IMG/VR virus record: IMGVR_UViG_3300046736_000183
Span: 1-48,327 of that record
DNA from: a virus
Reading direction: 5' to 3' (one strand)
DNA: 48,327 nt
This document shows, piece by piece, positions 2,942-48,078 of the stretch (positions are counted from its first letter, which is position 1; every line of letters starts with the position of its first letter). Made by a program: the position numbers and the translations under genes. Under the pieces are notes generated by a model that had not been told where the DNA came from, ran no database searches, and worked only from the letters and a program-made list of their open reading frames with translations.

Positions 2942-3645
2942 GCGACGTGATCCTTGACCCGATGGAGATGGCAGTTCAGCTGGCCGCGGCCCGCGCCCGC
3001 GAGAGCGCAGAGGAGTGGAAACGCCTTGCGCTGGCCAATGCCGATGAGGCCGCCTCACTTAAGGCCGGGCTCGAAGCAACGACAGGCAGTGGTCCCTGTG
3101 TGGAAATCACGCCCGAAATCCCAAAGTCATTTTACGAGGGACTCGCGGAATGCAGGCAACAGATGCTGGTCGATCGTGATCAGCGCATCGCGGCGCTCGA
3201 AGCCGAGCGGGACGTGATGCTCCATGAACTCGGGCAAACCCGCGCTTTGGCTCACGGTCTTAACCGCGAATTAGCTACTGCACAAGGACACAGCCACGGA
3301 TACCAACACGAACTTACTGCCGCTTACCAGCACATCGCCGCGCTCGAAGAGGAGCGGGACCGGCTGGCAACGGCGTTGGCGTTTTACGCCGATCCCGACA
3401 CTTACTTTGCCATGACAATCTTCGCTGACGCACCAGCGGGCGCATTCATGGAGGATTTCGATGAAGAACACGGGAGCGATTACGACCGGCCCATGCCGGG
3501 CAAGTGTGCGCGGGCCGCGCTCGAAGCCGAGCGGGATAGGCTGGCGGCGCAACTCTCGGAGAAGACTCCTGAGAACCAGGCGATCGACAGGGCCATTGAT
3601 CGACAGATTGCGAAACTGGAAGCAGAGCAGGCCACCAAGCCGTGA
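2938..3645 (+). CDS. Long coiled-coil protein with repeated ALEAERD segments
   Basis: A 235-residue, mostly helical protein. The segment A-x-LE-x-ERD occurs three times (IAALEAERD, IAALEEERDRL, RAALEAERDRLAAQL), together with other heptads, so internal duplication is likely. An acidic, aromatic insert (ADPDTYFAMTIFADAP to DEEHGSDYDRP) interrupts the coils. No enzymatic motif is visible. It overlaps both neighbours by four bases, so it belongs to the same translational unit as the polymerase-like gene. Confidence 0.6.
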   Translation: MSDVILDPMEMAVQLAAARARESAEEWKRLALANADEAASLKAGLEATTGSGPCVEITPEIPKSFYEGLAECRQQMLVDRDQRIAALEAERDVMLHELGQTRALAHGLNRELATAQGHSHGYQHELTAAYQHIAALEEERDRLATALAFYADPDTYFAMTIFADAPAGAFMEDFDEEHGSDYDRPMPGKCARAALEAERDRLAAQLSEKTPENQAIDRAIDRQIAKLEAEQATKP

Positions 3646-5795
3646 GCACCCCGGTCTACTTCATGACCCTCGCGGACGCGATCCCGGCGCAGCAGCCGAG
3701 CTTGGCGTCCAGCTACCGGCTCGCCGTCATCGGCCCGTGCCCGAATGCCGCATCCTTCGACAGCCGCGAGCCCTTTGCCGGCGCCGTAGGTGCCACCCTG
3801 TGGGGCGAGCTGGGCCGGGCCGGTGTCCCGCGGCAGGCGTGCTACGCGACGAACCTGTCGCCCACCCCGCAGTGGCAGGTAGTGGCTGAATACCTCGACG
3901 GGATCAAGGCTGACCTTGATGCCTTCCGCCCGAACTTGGTGCTGCTGCTCGGCCAGCAGGCACTGAACATGTTCCTGTCGGGGAAGTCCCGGCTCAGCGA
4001 CTGGAGAGGGAGCGTATTCTTGGCTGACAGCTTCCTGCCGGGCCAGAAGTGCCTCGCTACGCACCACCCCACCGCTGCTTATGCCGACTACACCCTCATG
4101 CCATTGGTGCGGTATGATTTTAAGCGTGCGGCCGACGAGTCAGCAGTTGCTGGGTTCTCCGCTCCTGTTCGAGAATTTCGAACTGAGGTGTCAGCGTCCC
4201 TTGCAGTTCTTCTACTGTCCCAACTGCGACCTGCTGAGCCTTTGGCCATCGACATCGAGGGCGGGGTCGACGGGCTCAGGTGTATCAGCTTCAGCCAGGA
4301 CCCGGCGACCGGGTTCATAGTGCCGTGGGACGGGTGGACGATCGAGGAGCAGTGCATGGTCGCGCCGGCGCTGGCGAAGGTCCTAGGCGACCCGGCCATT
4401 CCGAAGGTCTTGCAAAACTCACTGTATGATAATTTTGTCCTATCATACATTTACCGGATGCCGGTGAGGGGAGTGGTCCATGACACGATGCTCAGTGGCT
4501 GGGAACTGTACCCGGAGTTGCCGAAGAGCCTGGCGGTCCAAGCCAGCATCTGGACCCGGGAGCCATTCTGGAAACACCAGCAGGGGAGCCCGGACCGGAG
4601 GACGCTCTGGGCATATTGCTGTCGGGACAGTGCTGTGACGTTGGAGATCGCATGGGCGCATGAGCGGGTACTGGCGAAGTCGCCAGGAGCCCTGGCCCAT
4701 TATCAATTTAACGTTTCTCTCCTGGCACCACTACTTTACCTGGAGTTGCGGGGCATGGCCTACGACGCTGAGGCTGCGGCACAGACCCACTGTGCCACGC
4801 TGATGACGATGGGTGCCATCCAGGGGTTGATCGACGAAGCCGCCGGCGCCCCGGTAAACCTGCACAGCCCCCGGCAGCTATGTACTGTACTGTATAAGAA
4901 GCTCGGGTACCCGGCGCAGCACCCGCGAGTGGGCCGGAAAGTGGATCTGAGTCGCTGGACAGCTGACAGTGATGCTCTGGCGGCCCTACAGCGGATCCGG
5001 CCCCTCGACCCCCTCCTTGCCTGGACCGTTGAGTGGAAGCGCCTGGACAGGCTCAGGGAGGCCTTAGCGGCCCAGCCAGACACCGATGGGCGTCTGAGGT
5101 GCAGCTACAACGTCGTCGGGGACGAGGCCGGCAGGATGAAGTGTTACCCGTCGCCCACCGGCACGGGAGCAGACATCAACCTCCTCCCCCGGGACCTGTT
5201 CCGCGCCGACCCCGGCATGCTCCTATTCGAATGCACCTGGCCCTGCGGCGAAGCCGCGACCCTGGAGGCTCACTACAGGAGGCTCGGTTCCCCGGCGGCT
5301 CACCGCCAGTGGGTGAAGGACCAGTTGCTCAGCAAGGGAACCCTTCCCTGTGCCAGTGGCCACGTGCGCACGTTCTTTGGCAGACGCGACTCAGCCGCCA
5401 CCCTCGCCGATGCTCTCGCCCACGAACCCGCCGCCAACCTAGCGTATGCCGTCAACCGATCCCTTCTTGCCCTCTGGCTCGACCCTGCCAATCGAGCAGC
5501 AGGAGCTCATGGCCCGGATCTCGCAGGTGATCATCGTGATGACGGGGGATCCGGAAGTGCCAGTGCACTACCGCCAGGAGTTGGTCTCGATCGTCTCGGG
5601 GCTCTTGTTGTTGAACCGCTCCACGTCTGGCATGGAGGTTTACTCGTCCAAGGATCCGCCGATAGGCGGGAGTGGATCGGGGCCAAGCTCAGAGAGTGGA
5701 CCTCCGTCCCCTTGACGATCGCCGGGCAGCAGGTCGTCCTCCCGTGCGCCGTGTCCTGTGGCCCGTCCTGGGGCTCCCTCGAACCCATCCAATAA
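3642..5795 (+). CDS. Fusion of uracil-DNA glycosylase-like domain, 3'-5' exonuclease and degenerate family A polymerase
   Basis: A 717-residue protein. Residues about 24-160 resemble a family 4-like uracil-DNA glycosylase (RLAVIGPCPN, LVLLLGQQALN, ATHHPTAAY). Residues about 200-340 are a DnaQ-type exonuclease with all three motifs: D204-x-E206, N259-S-L-Y-D263 and Y325-C-C-R-D329. The rest resembles a polymerase A C-terminal region: INLLPRDLFRADPGMLLFE (motif A approach), SGHVRTFFGRR, EPLHVWHGGLL (motif C position, residue 658 on) and GPSWGSLE at the end. However, the motif A Asp is replaced (FECTWPC, residues 529-535), the motif C His-Asp reads His-Gly (664-665), and the O-helix stretch is almost absent. 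The exonuclease and glycosylase may be active; DNA synthesis probably is not. The start at 3642 is GTG, overlapping the previous stop. Confidence 0.8.
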   Translation: MSTPVYFMTLADAIPAQQPSLASSYRLAVIGPCPNAASFDSREPFAGAVGATLWGELGRAGVPRQACYATNLSPTPQWQVVAEYLDGIKADLDAFRPNLVLLLGQQALNMFLSGKSRLSDWRGSVFLADSFLPGQKCLATHHPTAAYADYTLMPLVRYDFKRAADESAVAGFSAPVREFRTEVSASLAVLLLSQLRPAEPLAIDIEGGVDGLRCISFSQDPATGFIVPWDGWTIEEQCMVAPALAKVLGDPAIPKVLQNSLYDNFVLSYIYRMPVRGVVHDTMLSGWELYPELPKSLAVQASIWTREPFWKHQQGSPDRRTLWAYCCRDSAVTLEIAWAHERVLAKSPGALAHYQFNVSLLAPLLYLELRGMAYDAEAAAQTHCATLMTMGAIQGLIDEAAGAPVNLHSPRQLCTVLYKKLGYPAQHPRVGRKVDLSRWTADSDALAALQRIRPLDPLLAWTVEWKRLDRLREALAAQPDTDGRLRCSYNVVGDEAGRMKCYPSPTGTGADINLLPRDLFRADPGMLLFECTWPCGEAATLEAHYRRLGSPAAHRQWVKDQLLSKGTLPCASGHVRTFFGRRDSAATLADALAHEPAANLAYAVNRSLLALWLDPANRAAGAHGPDLAGDHRDDGGSGSASALPPGVGLDRLGALVVEPLHVWHGGLLVQGSADRREWIGAKLREWTSVPLTIAGQQVVLPCAVSCGPSWGSLEPIQ
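5446..5715 (+). CDS. Possible overprinted ORF inside the polymerase-like gene
   Basis: An 89-codon frame, +1 relative to the polymerase-like gene, lies wholly inside it. Between about 5485 and 5640 this frame has nearly all G or C at third positions (ATC GAG CAG CAG GAG CTC ATG GCC CGG), whereas the polymerase frame there uses codons otherwise rare in the gene (GTT, TTA, GGA). The predicted peptide is helical (QQELMARISQVIIVM, YRQELVSIVSGLLLL) with a Ser/Gly/Pro-rich end. No ribosome site is evident before the ATG at 5446; the ATG at 5512 is an alternative. It may be a real small gene overprinted on the polymerase. Confidence 0.4.
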   Translation: MPSTDPFLPSGSTLPIEQQELMARISQVIIVMTGDPEVPVHYRQELVSIVSGLLLLNRSTSGMEVYSSKDPPIGGSGSGPSSESGPPSP

Positions 5796-6238: not shown

Positions 6239-6952
6239 ATGATCACGGGAGTGTACCATGTCGGGGGAGTTGCCCACTGGCGGGAAGTGGTCTCTGAGCA
6301 GCTGCGCCTCCTCGGCAAGGCCAAGTTCCCCGGTCTCATCCACTGTCACTACGGCGGTCCCAAAGAGGAACAATGGTTCATCATGCGGGTAGCCGAGGTC
6401 CACGGGCTGGAGATCACCTTCCTGCCCAACGAACCTGGCCGGGAAGAAGCCCCCGCCATCCGGTTCACCCAGGAGTACGCGATGACCTGCGACCCGGACG
6501 AGCACATCCTTTACTTTCATAACAAAGGCTGCGGGACCCCGAACTCGTGGCGGCACGTGATGTGGCGCTGGATGCTCAACTACTACATCCTGGTCGAGTG
6601 GGAGAAGGCACTGGCAACCCTTCAGGCCGAAGGCCTCGACTGGGTCGGACCCCAGTGTTTCCGAGACGGGGACTTCCCCCATGGTGCCGGGAACTTCTTT
6701 ATCGCCCGTAGCGCCCACCTGCGTCGCCTTGAACCGTTCGAGCGTTACTACGCCACGTTCCTCGAGAAGCACCCGACAGGTCGTCCGCACTGGATGAGTC
6801 GGCGCCATGCCAGCGAGATGTGGATCGGGAGCGACGGGGAGTTGAACTTCGCCTCACTGATGCCTGAGCCGATGATGGTGGAGTTGAGCAACCATCAGAG
6901 TTGGTGTGCGCACCCCGAGGCGCAGGTCTTTGCCACCCGTCACGGCTCATGA
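6239..6952 (+). CDS. Glycosyltransferase-like protein in the replication operon
   Basis: A 237-residue protein. The segment ILYFHNKGCG (residues 90-99), followed by a WR-x-VMWRWMLNYYI stretch, and later DWVGPQCFRDG and GAGNFFIARSAHLRRL, match the pattern of a group of putative glycosyltransferases that carry 'YxHxKG', 'WR...' and 'H/G-NFWWA' signatures. The donor and acceptor cannot be read from sequence. It sits between a membrane peptide and the DUF3987-like ATPase. It may modify the host surface or phage DNA, but neither is shown. Confidence 0.6.
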   Translation: MITGVYHVGGVAHWREVVSEQLRLLGKAKFPGLIHCHYGGPKEEQWFIMRVAEVHGLEITFLPNEPGREEAPAIRFTQEYAMTCDPDEHILYFHNKGCGTPNSWRHVMWRWMLNYYILVEWEKALATLQAEGLDWVGPQCFRDGDFPHGAGNFFIARSAHLRRLEPFERYYATFLEKHPTGRPHWMSRRHASEMWIGSDGELNFASLMPEPMMVELSNHQSWCAHPEAQVFATRHGS

Positions 6953-6968
6953 TCCTTTCCCCTTTCCC

Positions 6969-8303
6969 ATGTCCTCCTTTCTCAGAGATTATGAAGTCTT
7001 TAGTGGAGGCAACAAAGCCTCGCCATTATTCCACATGTGGTCAGGTATCAGTGCCATAGCCAGCCTGTTATCCCGTCGCGTGTGGGTCCAGCAGGGGTTT
7101 TTCAGCGTCTACCCGAACCTGTACGTGATCTTGGTCGGTGACCCCGCCTGCGGCAAATCGCACGCCATGTCCTATGCCCGGACGCTGATCCGCGAGTTCC
7201 CGGACACGATCATCGCCCCGGACAGCGTGACGAAAGAGGCTCTGACGTTGTTCATGGCCGGCACCGAGACGAGGCCATCACCGTGCATCAAGCGGTTCTC
7301 ATGCAACAGCGGACCACTCGAGGAGTACTGCCAAGTCAGCATCTTCTCGAACGAGTTGGTCACCCTGCTCGGGACTGAACCCATTAGAATGATTGAATTT
7401 TTCACAGATGTCTGGGATCAGAAGGCATTCACCGTAAAAACTAAAAACCAAGGGACGGACATCATCATCGGGCCATGCGTGAATATCCTTGGATGCCTGA
7501 CGCCACAGATCACATCGAACCTCCTAAAATCTCAAGTCATCTCCGGTGGATTCTCCCGTCGCTGCATCTTCGTCTCGAGCCCCATGACCGGGACTGCCGT
7601 CCCACGGCCGAAGTTCACCGACGAGCAAAAGGCCGCCTTCGCCCGACTGAAGGAACGGGGGAAGTTCCTCGGGGAGGTTTGCGGCGAGTTCCAGTGGACA
7701 CCAGAGGCCGAAGAGTGGTTCGACCGGTGGTTCATGGAGAAGGAGGAGGCGATGAAGGCGGTGGTCGATGCCCCGATAAAGCACTACCTCGGGAGCAAGG
7801 ACGGGATGTTGCTGAAGGTGGCCATGGCAGTGGCGTTGTCTGAAGGAGACGAGTTGGTGCTCACTGCGGGGGTCCTTCAAGCCGCCCTGTCGTTCCTCGA
7901 TGTGGTCGAGGAGCACTTGCCAAAAGTCTTCGAGGGCACCGGCCGGAACGAGCTGGCTCCGATCCTCCACCGGATCGCTGACTTCGTCACCAACAGCCTG
8001 CCGCACCCGGTGGCGGTCAAGACTCTGCGCGGTGCATTCTTCTCGGACGCGAACCACGAGGAGATGTCGAGAATATTTCTCCAGCTGCAGGAGACGGGAA
8101 AAGTCCAGTTGTACCGTTCCGGGGGCGAAGAGTATTGCACGACGCCTGAGCAGGTGAAGAAGCTGGCGAAGGAGGCACGGCACGTTGAGCGGGAGGTCGT
8201 GGACGTGACGGCTGGACCTACTCCAGCGGCATCAGTGCCCGCAGCGCCGGCGGTGCCGTCCGCCGTGGACCCTGCAGCTGCGCCCTCGCCTGGGCCACAG
8301 TGA
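6969..8303 (+). CDS. DUF3987-like P-loop ATPase, probable replicative helicase or primase-helicase partner
   Basis: A 444-residue protein with the opening SFLRDYEVFSGGNKASPLFHMW and the Walker A motif GDPACGKS at residues 57-64. Later come VSIFSNELVTLL (probable Walker B/sensor strand), NILGCLTPQ and GGFSRR (arginine-finger-like). This order matches DUF3987-type ATPases found in phage and mobile-element replication modules; no primase domain is present. The C-terminal tail is low-complexity Ala/Pro. The start is the ATG at 6969, after a pyrimidine-rich stretch (CCCCTTTCCC) and 16 bases past the previous stop. The last 86 bases overlap the convergent 1936-aa gene. Confidence 0.72.
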   Translation: MSSFLRDYEVFSGGNKASPLFHMWSGISAIASLLSRRVWVQQGFFSVYPNLYVILVGDPACGKSHAMSYARTLIREFPDTIIAPDSVTKEALTLFMAGTETRPSPCIKRFSCNSGPLEEYCQVSIFSNELVTLLGTEPIRMIEFFTDVWDQKAFTVKTKNQGTDIIIGPCVNILGCLTPQITSNLLKSQVISGGFSRRCIFVSSPMTGTAVPRPKFTDEQKAAFARLKERGKFLGEVCGEFQWTPEAEEWFDRWFMEKEEAMKAVVDAPIKHYLGSKDGMLLKVAMAVALSEGDELVLTAGVLQAALSFLDVVEEHLPKVFEGTGRNELAPILHRIADFVTNSLPHPVAVKTLRGAFFSDANHEEMSRIFLQLQETGKVQLYRSGGEEYCTTPEQVKKLAKEARHVEREVVDVTAGPTPAASVPAAPAVPSAVDPAAAPSPGPQ

Positions 8304-39840: not shown

Positions 39841-40422
39841 GTGAATACCAACCATGACCCACATCGAATTCAGCAAGAAGGGGGGCCGAGTGAAATCAGC
39901 CGTGAAGACAAAAGCCGCCAAGGCGAACCTCCAGAAAGCCCAGGATGCTTTAGCGCGAAAGAGAAAGCTCGCTTCTGGACCAAAGTAGACATCCGCGCCG
40001 CGGACGAGTGCTGGCCTTGGCTGAGGGCAAAGTCCTCGTGGGGATATGGACTGTTCCCGGTATACGGAGAAGCCAAAAAGAAACGGCTGTCCGCCCACAG
40101 GGTCGCTTGGCAATTATCCAAAGGCAAGATCCCCTCCAGCATGTGCGTCTGCCATACGTGCGACAATCCACCGTGCTGCAATCCCGCTCATCTCTGGCTC
40201 GGCTCACAACAGGACAACACCCGTGATCGACATGCCAAGGGACGAACCCTAAAGGGCACCACTCAGCCCAACGCGAAGTTGACAGAGGCCCAAGTCATCG
40301 AGATCAGGCTCCGTCACCAACTCGGCTGCTCTCTGCACCAACTCGAAAGAGAGTACCCGGTCTCCCGTGCCCAGATCCGTCGCATCGTCCAGGGAAAGAA
40401 GTGGAAGTGCTTGAAACCATGA
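39841..40422 (+). CDS. HNH endonuclease overlapping a small gene
   Basis: A 193-residue frame. Residues about 42-140 form an HNH domain (FWTKVDIRAADECWPWLRAK, GYGLFPVYGEA, AHRVAWQLSKGK, MCVCHTCDNPPCCNPAHLWLGSQQDNTRDRHAKGR) followed by a helix-turn-helix region (LTEAQVIEIRLRHQLGCSLHQLEREY). The first 40 residues have no counterpart in the sister HNH at 26863 and overlap in another frame with a small 44-aa gene. The frame starts at GTG 39841; there is no internal ATG. Possibly a homing-type gene inserted into the small gene. Confidence 0.75.
   Translation: MNTNHDPHRIQQEGGPSEISREDKSRQGEPPESPGCFSAKEKARFWTKVDIRAADECWPWLRAKSSWGYGLFPVYGEAKKKRLSAHRVAWQLSKGKIPSSMCVCHTCDNPPCCNPAHLWLGSQQDNTRDRHAKGRTLKGTTQPNAKLTEAQVIEIRLRHQLGCSLHQLEREYPVSRAQIRRIVQGKKWKCLKP
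39854..39988 (+). CDS. Small basic protein (44 residues) overlapped by the HNH gene
   Basis: A 44-residue protein, MTHIEFSKKGGRVKSAVK then AAKANLQKAQDALARKRK, basic and helical. Third positions are strongly G/C (ACC CAC ATC GAA TTC AGC AAG AAG), as in real genes here. The leader AATACCAACC before the ATG is of the A/C type seen elsewhere. The GG-R-x-K-S-x-x-K-x-x-A-A pattern is similar to short phage proteins of unknown function. Its C terminus may have been changed when the HNH gene entered. Confidence 0.5.
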   Translation: MTHIEFSKKGGRVKSAVKTKAAKANLQKAQDALARKRKLASGPK

Positions 40423-45582: not shown

Positions 45583-46188
45583 TTATGCCAGGGCGCGTCG
45601 CGCGGCGAGCACCTTGACCCCGCCCAGGCCCAGCAGGACCATACCCAGCATGGCAATGCCAGGACCACCCTCGGGCACCCCGAACGGGGTAGGCGTGAGA
45701 CCACCGGTTCCAGAAAATAGAGTAAAGTGCGATATTTGGTATTTGTCCAACTCGTCAGTCCAGAACGCGTAGGGAAATTCGGGAATCGTAGATGCCTCAC
45801 CGCCGAAGAGGAAGAGCACGTATCCTCCGTTCGGGCCGTCGTATTTCGCCAGGGCGCCGCCCCAGCCGGCCGGGATGGAGACGGTGTCATCGGCATCGCC
45901 GAAGCCGCCACCGGGTTCCTCGTTCTGGCCGCCGTTGGATGTGATCACGCCCGAGTAGTCGAAGATGTTGTTCGCGTGATACGGGCCATTATCTTCGCCG
46001 AGGGCGAGGTCGAGGATCGCCTGTGCGATCAGGGTTTCGGTGGCAACGTTCGAGTTGGCTTCCTGACCGTCGTGGATACCGACAATGAACTGCTGATTGA
46101 GCGTCATTGGCGAGGTGATGGTGACGGCCGAAGCCGTGGAGAGCGCGGCAACCGTCCCTGCCGCTAGGAGCATGAGTTTGGATTTCAT
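45583..46188 (-). CDS. Secreted protein with VPEGG-type (PEP-CTERM-like) sorting tail
   Basis: A 201-residue protein. It begins with a Sec signal peptide (MKSKLMLLAAGTVAALSTASA). Its C terminus has the tripartite sorting signal: VPEGG at residues 171-175, a hydrophobic helix (IAMLGMVLLGLGGV) and the basic cluster AARRALA. Such tails are read by exosortase systems and are common in Verrucomicrobiota (VPDSG-type). The middle is Asn/Asp/Gly-rich (NGGQNEEPGGGFGDADD, AKYDGPNGGYVLFLFGG) as in surface proteins of these bacteria. No SD is visible before the ATG. It is a separate transcription unit in an early plus-strand region, thus a likely moron for host surface change. Confidence 0.8.
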   Translation of the reverse strand: MKSKLMLLAAGTVAALSTASAVTITSPMTLNQQFIVGIHDGQEANSNVATETLIAQAILDLALGEDNGPYHANNIFDYSGVITSNGGQNEEPGGGFGDADDTVSIPAGWGGALAKYDGPNGGYVLFLFGGEASTIPEFPYAFWTDELDKYQISHFTLFSGTGGLTPTPFGVPEGGPGIAMLGMVLLGLGGVKVLAARRALA

Positions 46189-46197
46189 AGGAGGGAA

Positions 46198-46226
46198 GAT
46201 GTAGAGCATTTGGAAAAAGAGTGCAA
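46198..46226 (-). promoter_or_regulatory. Possible promoter of the VPEGG-tail gene
   Basis: On the minus strand, TTGCAC (46221-46226) is followed 17 bases later by TACATC (46198-46203), a weak -10. The start codon lies about ten bases downstream of it. The divergent gap also carries two TTGACTC copies (46233-46239 and 46249-46255). Confidence 0.3.
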
Positions 46227-46535: not shown

Positions 46536-47044
46536 TGAGCGCCATGCTCGCCAAGCCTCGCATAACAAAAACCTTGATGCCCTCTCCTGCACCAGTCCAC
46601 GGCGAGCGAGAGCGAGCCGGCGCCACGCTTCCAAAGCACTTTTACCGCATCCAGGGGTACATCGACCCCGAGGCCTACCATGTGCTTTTCGATGACCGCT
46701 ACCCCGCCTGGGGGATGCAGACTCGGATCATCAAGGCGTTGGTTGGTGCTCTTGCGCGCCATGTCGAACGGTACTGCGACCCACATTTGCCCTCTCATGA
46801 ACGGGACAACGAACTGCAGCTTATCTTGGAGAGAGTCACCTTTATGGTGCCTCGGCGGCCTCGAGGTGGTGGACATGGACGGGCTCCAGCTACGGGAGCA
46901 CTTGGCAGCGATCCGTTCCCGGCGTCTAGCGGGCCGCAGGAGCCCTCCGAGCCTCGACTTGGGGTCAGAGAGCCATCCGGTGCCCCGGACGCGCCAGAAG
47001 GCCCCCAGAGCGCGAAAGAAGCCACAGCCACAGCCACCGCCTGA
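46535..47044 (+). CDS. Hypothetical protein with a basic DNA-binding-like core
   Basis: A 169-residue frame. Residues about 30-105 form a coherent helical domain (HFYRIQGYIDPEAYHVLFDDRYPAW, TRIIKALVGALARHVER), rich in Arg and aromatic residues. From about residue 110 the frame becomes Gly/Pro/Ala-rich with poor codon bias, while another frame (46875-47066) shows better bias, so the true C terminus is uncertain. It overlaps the next nuclease gene by one base. Confidence 0.5.
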   Translation: MSAMLAKPRITKTLMPSPAPVHGERERAGATLPKHFYRIQGYIDPEAYHVLFDDRYPAWGMQTRIIKALVGALARHVERYCDPHLPSHERDNELQLILERVTFMVPRRPRGGGHGRAPATGALGSDPFPASSGPQEPSEPRLGVREPSGAPDAPEGPQSAKEATATATA

Positions 47045-47066
47045 TGACCTTATCCCTCCAACCTGA
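46875..47066 (+). CDS. Possible overlapping ORF in the 3' part of 46535-47044
   Basis: A 63-codon frame beginning at an ATG (MDGLQLREHLAAIRSRRLAG) with mostly G/C third positions at its start (GAC GGG CTC CAG CTA CGG GAG CAC), ending in a Lys/Pro-rich tail (RARKKPQPQPPPDD). It overlaps the end of the previous gene in another frame and the start of the nuclease by 23 bases. It could be a true gene, or the continuation of 46535 after a frameshift. Confidence 0.35.
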   Translation: MDGLQLREHLAAIRSRRLAGRRSPPSLDLGSESHPVPRTRQKAPRARKKPQPQPPPDDLIPPT

Positions 47067-48078
47067 AGCTCCGGCCACCGTGCCCGCGCTACCGACGCGC
47101 CGGCTCTTCACCTACGACCCGCAGGAGCGCGTCCTCCTGATGGAGATCGACAATACTTCGCTGAGCCACTTCTGTACGTGCGCCCGTGCAGCTGAGTACA
47201 GACTGGTCCACAGTCGCGAAGGCACCCAGAACATGGCGGCCAAGGTCTACGGCTCGGCCAAACACCTGTACCTCGAGAGTCGACTCAAGGGCGCAAGCGT
47301 GACCAGAGCCGAGGATCTGATGGTCCATTATCTGGCCATGAACCCGGTGGACGACCCGAACAACTGGCGGACAGCCACCCACGCCATCGACTCGATGCGC
47401 GGGTACGAGAATTGGTACCATGCACAGCCGATCGAGCCAGCGATCCGCGACGGGAAGCCGCTTGTGGAGATCGGGTTCCGGCTACCGCTCTGCGAGGTCG
47501 CCATCGGTGGAGCCGCCATGACTTACGAACGCCTGCTGCCCCTGCTCACGAACCCTGACGACTGCCCGCTGGTGCCCAGCCTTGTGCGTGTTCTATGGAC
47601 CGGCCGGTTCGACGTAATCGCTCCGTTCCTTGGCGAGACGTATCTGTGGGACCACAAGTCGACCAGCATGGTTGGACCGACGTTCTATGACGATTTCCAG
47701 TTGAGCAGCCAGATGCACGGGTACGTGTGGAGCTGCCGGCACCTTTACCCGGACCTCGATGTCCGCGGGATGCGGATTAATGCAATCATCGGGCGTGCGC
47801 CAAGCAAGACCGGCATCGCACACGCCTACGAGCGCCAGACGTATGTGTACAGCGATGAACACTTGGCTGAGTGGCACCGGGATACCCAGATCTTGGTCAG
47901 CGACTTCCTGAGCCATTTGCTGCGTGGGTATTTCCCCAAGATGACGCAGTGGTGTCAGGGACGCTGGGGCCAATGTGGCTATTTCCCGGTATGCACTTCG
48001 TTGCCCGAGTCCCGGCACATTGTCTTGGACTCCTCGCTCTTTCAAGATTGTACCTGGTCGCCGCTCAACGAGCGGTGA
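47044..48078 (+). CDS. Cas4-like PD-(D/E)XK exonuclease
   Basis: A 344-residue protein. The catalytic core GRFDVIAPFLGETYLWDHKST (residues about 182-202) has the PD-(D/E)XK pattern (Asp, Asp, Lys). N-terminal FCTCARAAEYR and C-terminal CQGRWGQC-GYFPVC hold Cys ligands that in Cas4-type proteins bind an iron-sulfur cluster. Nucleases of this sort produce ssDNA for recombination. It lies just upstream of the SSB/Sak4 genes if the map is circular. The ATG overlaps the previous stop. Confidence 0.75.
   Translation: MTLSLQPEAPATVPALPTRRLFTYDPQERVLLMEIDNTSLSHFCTCARAAEYRLVHSREGTQNMAAKVYGSAKHLYLESRLKGASVTRAEDLMVHYLAMNPVDDPNNWRTATHAIDSMRGYENWYHAQPIEPAIRDGKPLVEIGFRLPLCEVAIGGAAMTYERLLPLLTNPDDCPLVPSLVRVLWTGRFDVIAPFLGETYLWDHKSTSMVGPTFYDDFQLSSQMHGYVWSCRHLYPDLDVRGMRINAIIGRAPSKTGIAHAYERQTYVYSDEHLAEWHRDTQILVSDFLSHLLRGYFPKMTQWCQGRWGQCGYFPVCTSLPESRHIVLDSSLFQDCTWSPLNER

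Follow-up and report, generated by a model that had tools for sequence, protein, structure and literature searches.

An uncultured phage encodes a family A DNA polymerase homologue that, on our assessment, probably descends from the replicative UDG-exonuclease-PolA fusion of its clade, has lost polymerase activity and likely serves as an accessory protein while the host replicase copies the phage. The window, by which we mean the whole stretch of DNA analyzed, comprises the full 48,327 bases of an IMG/VR virus record, and the evidence base is this one metagenomic contig, which is without a close sister.

Gene layout and the polymerase determinants

The protein of 717 residues is encoded by a single uninterrupted reading frame with a GTG start. 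Pfam detects UDG (3e-11) and, below its cut-off, DNA_pol_A over residues 390–500 (1e-6), and PolA profiles from both Pfam and NCBIfam match the product. The open frame, these profiles and the relatives bear out the UDG-exonuclease-polymerase fusion that the initial annotation had read from the sequence. The gene is laid out as follows:

3642–5795, + strand: UDG-like, exonuclease and probably polymerase-dead family A polymerase homologue, 717 residues (open ORF, Pfam, relatives)
3711–4151, + strand: UDG-like domain, residues 24–170 (Pfam, NCBIfam UDG_fam4, alignments)
4236–4676, + strand: 3'-5' exonuclease domain, residues 199–345 (residues kept in relatives, profile match to Klenow)
4677–5141, + strand: thumb and start of the polymerase domain, residues 346–500, R498 kept (Pfam DNA_pol_A 390–500, model)
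5217–5261, + strand: motif A remnant, residues 526–540, Asp replaced by Thr532 (Asp in 63/63 relatives)
5286–5300, + strand: junction of the fingers deletion, residues ~549–553 (alignments, junction pLDDT above 90)
5298–5495, + strand: middle palm segment, residues 553–618, normally conserved except for Gln to Ala597 (alignments, branch lengths)
5496–5597, + strand: 34-residue insertion, residues 619–652, predicted disordered, with a frame +1 codon signature (alignments, model, codon scores)
5598–5783, + strand: last palm segment, residues 653–714, His664 kept, motif C Asp replaced by Gly665 (alignments)

Conservation is complete (63/63) among full-length phage relatives for the motif A Asp, for the motif B Lys, His and Tyr, for a Gln and for the motif C His-Asp; the window protein, the sole exception to this conservation, has Thr, three gaps, Ala and His-Gly at these six sites. 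Its motif A region reads F529-E-C-T-W-P-C535, with Thr532 at the Asp position, and its motif C reads H664-G665 where all 63 relatives have HD, so that both catalytic aspartates are indeed lost, as had been proposed. We take the motif A Asp to be Klenow D705 and the motif C pair to be Klenow H881-D882. The Klenow-Gln849-like Gln is lost as well (A597), a change beyond those initially listed. Compared with L006 and other close relatives, the fingers (~110 residues including motif B) are absent in frame between residues ~550 and ~553, which agrees with the earlier observation that the finger and O-helix stretch is nearly missing, and motif A is separated from motif C by 133 residues, insert included, versus 167–238 in relatives. 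The protein therefore lacks each of the features of an active family A polymerase: the motif A Asp, the O-helix Lys and Tyr with the fingers, and the motif C His-Asp.

These losses are concentrated in one part of the protein. Measured against an alignment of 51 relatives built without it, the window protein keeps every one of the 12 invariant columns as far as G509 and loses 8 of the 11 that follow (Fisher p = 0.0003); the clustering is not due to chance. Scanning with the window protein and L006 yielded 20 loci, of which 19 were new; 79 loci came from a wider scan. No polymerase motif was lost in a second set of up to 81 relatives (76–78 readable per position), a set that partly overlaps the 63 and includes some fragments. 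The closest polymerase relative, L220, is 44% identical, and close clade members range from 34 to 44%. The same lesions, which the initial annotation had suggested seeking in other phages, were found in none of the relatives collected through the polymerase or the terminase, and a search for closest relatives through the DUF3987 protein gave no match.

Other acidic residues at the metal sites would have undercut this reading. Judged by the sequence, none is new: the 8 residues to either side of motif C contain no new acid, and the acids near motif A are limited to E530 (relatives have Q or E there, as well as the Asp) and E537 (D or E). Because relatives carry these alternatives, neither residue is new to the metal site, and we reject compensation by neighboring acids.

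Several relatives show irregularities of their own. In L256 and L257 the polymerase is divided between two ORFs, with the break near residues 509–524 of L086, and in L287, L292 and L293 the break is near L086 residues 316–320, in the exonuclease; a frameshift, an intron or a true split is possible in each, and Rfam matched no intron in L256, L287, L292 or L293. The polymerases of G029 and G030 (L215–L218) match the profile in two pieces at the thumb, which suggests a small insertion that leaves the frame open. In G001, the record of L006, the terminase match at contig positions 5443–6987 contains one in-frame TAA.

Exonuclease, UDG-like domain and predicted fold

The exonuclease site has fared differently from the polymerase site. 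All five of its residues (D204, E206, D263, Y325 and D329) are intact, so the triad named in the initial annotation stands with Y325 in addition; D204, E206 and D329 are kept in 63/63 relatives. The domain gives a profile match to Klenow and contains the DnaQ-like metal-binding set DxE, D and YxxxD. On these residues, the exonuclease is probably active.

Evolutionary rates follow the same division. Branch-length z scores were 8.8 for the motif A palm segment and 3.9 for the motif C segment, compared to 0.9 for the exonuclease, 1.6 for the middle palm, 2.2 for the thumb and 2.6 for the UDG. Selection is relaxed only around the polymerase site, although the UDG and thumb, too, evolve somewhat fast, which we count against our preferred explanation. 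Past the insert, the C-terminus (LTIAGQQVVLP...GPSWG) continues in the identical frame to relatives, indicating that the frame was preserved.

These data bear on the reading that the phage is defective or host-dependent and the gene a decaying pseudogene, its polymerase lost recently and its frame open by luck. Such a history would fit three large lesions in one gene, an insert that reads better in frame +1, the faster than average UDG and thumb, and the fact that this is a single example. We nonetheless consider decay unlikely: 717 codons are open, the deletion and the insertion are each in frame, and the palm core and the C-terminus are conserved past the insert. Moreover, the substitutions cluster at motifs A and C (z 8.8 at motif A) while the exonuclease remains 5/5 intact at a normal rate (z 0.9), which argues against ordinary gene decay, as the exonuclease would not have been spared had the whole gene decayed neutrally.

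We predicted the structure with AlphaFold from a 52-sequence alignment. The model (pLDDT 91, pTM 0.88) shows a Klenow-like fold without fingers, in which only residues 1–3 and 623–651, within the insert, fall below pLDDT 50 and the deletion junction is modeled confidently (pLDDT above 90); an intact control relative, L086, gave a pLDDT of 94.6. Against the Bst Pol I large fragment, 467–468 residues of the window model aligned (Z about 37), compared to 547 for the intact relative, a shortfall that matches the missing fingers, and across Pol I large fragments Z was 32–37 over about 470 residues. Together with the PolA profile matches, this gives a predicted exonuclease-thumb-palm architecture homologous to that of Klenow and places the protein in family A by fold and descent.

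The UDG fold is recognized by profile (Pfam UDG, 43.9 bits, over the cut-off; NCBIfam UDG_fam4, 2e-10, under its cut-off). Its motif 1 reads GPCPN, with Pro32 in place of an acidic residue that is E or D in 58/63 relatives, while the motif-2 His is kept (His142) and is present in only 26/63 relatives. The Thermus thermophilus enzyme UDGa needs both E41 of motif 1 and H155 of motif 2, and its E41Q substitution lowers k2/Km from 2.4e5 to 2.7e2, a drop of about 900-fold (PMC5387724). With Pro32 at the position of Glu41, UDG activity is doubtful, which speaks against the initial proposal of an active glycosylase removing uracil. Since Pro32 stands in for the motif-1 acid here and over half of the wider clade has no motif-2 His, the domain looks structural in many members, and it probably binds DNA instead of excising uracil. 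Poxvirus D4, a uracil-DNA glycosylase and processivity factor whose UDG activity is unneeded for its replication role (described in PMC4304020), would be a parallel for an often structural UDG domain by analogy only, because D4 is a separate subunit of an active polymerase.

The insert, the overlapping frame and sequence quality

Before motif C, 34 residues (619–652) that are modeled as disordered replace a three-residue loop. The region also carries an overlapping frame:

5446–5715, + strand: open frame +1, 89 residues, with an inner ATG at 5509 after AGGAG and a coding signal at 5475–5650

The coding signal of frame +1 over positions 5475–5650 reaches 20.9 bits over 90 nt; elsewhere in the genome such in-gene frame signals are at most 8.5 bits, with one mis-started ORF set aside. 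The signal may come from part of a foreign gene that was inserted in a different reading frame, or from a small overlapping gene whose start is at 5509. We found no homologues of the frame +1 product and no match for the insert within the window, the fetched relatives, phage records or IMG/VR; a UPF0147 match to the insert (E 0.04) was not trusted. In the L091 polymerase, the same palm loop holds an unrelated and independent insert of similar size (about 30 residues), indicating that the site tolerates insertions.

Two further readings were weighed. In one, the protein has been exapted for a role outside DNA metabolism, as in poxvirus F12, or the C-terminal stretch has been overprinted and mainly carries a new small frame +1 gene, with the palm as a by-product. 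Its appeal lies in the 20.9-bit signal, set against the 8.5 bits reached at most elsewhere, together with the AGGAG and the ATG at 5509; given that no homologue of the frame +1 product was found and that an intact exonuclease points to work on DNA, we regard it as very improbable. The other reading is an artefact of assembly or sequencing; sequencing errors had been named in the initial annotation as a possible objection. A frameshift-aware alignment favored no frameshift at penalties of 9 bits or more, and at a 7-bit penalty it produced a short compensated pair at motif A among other spurious ones, which is only suggestive. Because this alignment gains nothing at ordinary penalties and the other window genes align to relatives in single frames, sequence errors are unlikely. 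Although the contig is metagenomic and the motif A stretch, at the lowest penalty only, admits a reading with a short, compensated shift of frame, a strain chimera or indel errors are very improbable, slightly more so than exaptation or overprinting, since the other genes are in single frames, a mis-join cannot account for the changes at Gln597, Gly665 and about 30 residues around motif A, the C-terminus is in frame and the junction is modeled well.

Genome context, role and known systems

The gene lies between a coiled-coil-like ORF on one side and a GT-like ORF and a DUF3987 primase/helicase on the other, and the order of polymerase, DUF3987 protein and convergent giant gene is common to the window, named phages and IMG/VR relatives. 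The terminase is 45–51% identical to relatives, which makes the phage an ordinary member of its clade. Three further genes of the window matter here:

207–941, + strand: Sak4-like annealing ATPase, a replication module neighbor (phrog_124, 1e-23)
6906–8303, + strand: DUF3987-type primase/helicase-like protein, syntenic with relatives (phrog_14296, 7e-43)
47044–48078, + strand: exonuclease gene, which adjoins the Sak4 gene in relatives (phrog_1218, 2e-10)

The distance from the exonuclease gene to the Sak4 gene is a few to about 800 nt in relatives and 455 nt across the contig ends here. As the ends fall between genes that are adjacent in relatives, the contig is probably complete and circularly permuted; it is classed as linear and may lack a short stretch. 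Searches with PF00476, PF00136 and PF07733 (families A, B and C) found no second polymerase in the contig, PHROGs found no other among the main ORFs scanned, and a clade HMM run over six frames found no separate fingers or other copy in the window. A split polymerase with its fingers elsewhere was rejected: the clade fingers HMM was blank in the window and reached 3e-43 in a control genome. With no other DNA polymerase found in the contig, the phage would depend on a host polymerase, as the initial annotation had anticipated.

Elsewhere in the window, an HNH endonuclease gene at 39841–40422 (+ strand; Pfam HNH_3, 7e-12) is a possible homing endonuclease. A 208-residue protein encoded at 45583–46209 (− strand) has an N-terminal signal-like stretch and a PEP-CTERM-like C-terminal tail, VPEGG...LL...RRALA; it matches NCBIfam PEP_CTERM_FxDxF only at E 0.22 and might point to the host. 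An Rfam scan of the window matched no RNA family.

We return to descent from a replicative fusion. The protein would still fold, its thumb and palm would bind DNA, its exonuclease would trim 3' ends, and the host replicase would copy the phage genome. The protein itself would be an accessory to phage replication or to Sak4-type recombination, either as a 3'-5' exonuclease or by binding DNA. It would most likely be used to trim or protect 3' ends close to the Sak4/helicase system, or else to proofread in trans, and we choose neither. To the fuller account we give about an even chance: in it, this lineage converted its own replicative UDG-PolA into an accessory factor that lacks fingers and polymerase activity but has an active exonuclease, the UDG-like domain and palm only bind DNA or partner proteins, and the host replicase does the copying. 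A role as a repair or editing platform, as first suggested, is possible; of that interpretation, polymerase loss and host dependence are supported, and glycosylase repair, given Pro32, is not.

The protein shares its domain order, and its gene order with the DUF3987 protein, with phage UDG-exonuclease-PolA fusions (Pseudomonas phage PaBG gp205, the "Lupandier" phages, PMC7412058; PHROG 17; the IMG/VR clade), but, unlike them, it has neither the aspartates of motifs A and C nor the Gln nor the fingers with their motif B, and it carries an insert predicted to be disordered. Like inactivated family B polymerases (archaeal forms and the C-terminal half of Pol epsilon, PMC2669801; poxvirus F12, PMC4304020), it is a homologue kept after its catalytic residues were lost; unlike them it belongs to family A and its fingers are deleted outright, and unlike F12, which lost both sites (PMC4304020), it retains an intact exonuclease site. 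ImuB, an inactive Y-family polymerase (described in PMC12926913), is likewise catalytically inactive with an accessory role, but it belongs to an unrelated family and has no exonuclease. For an inactive family A phage polymerase we recognized no precedent in the literature searched, the coverage of which was incomplete.

Inactivated polymerases of families B and Y proved to be scaffolds or to have acquired new tasks. The present case is striking and clean, but it is known from one uncultured phage, and other polymerase families offer parallels. A family A phage case, with a clean loss of the fingers and retention of the nuclease, would show that a lytic-type replication module can shed the polymerase it encodes and otherwise persist, and it would provide a natural separation of exonuclease from synthesis in the PolA fold. 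It also raises a testable question: can phages abandon a replicase of their own in favor of the host's?
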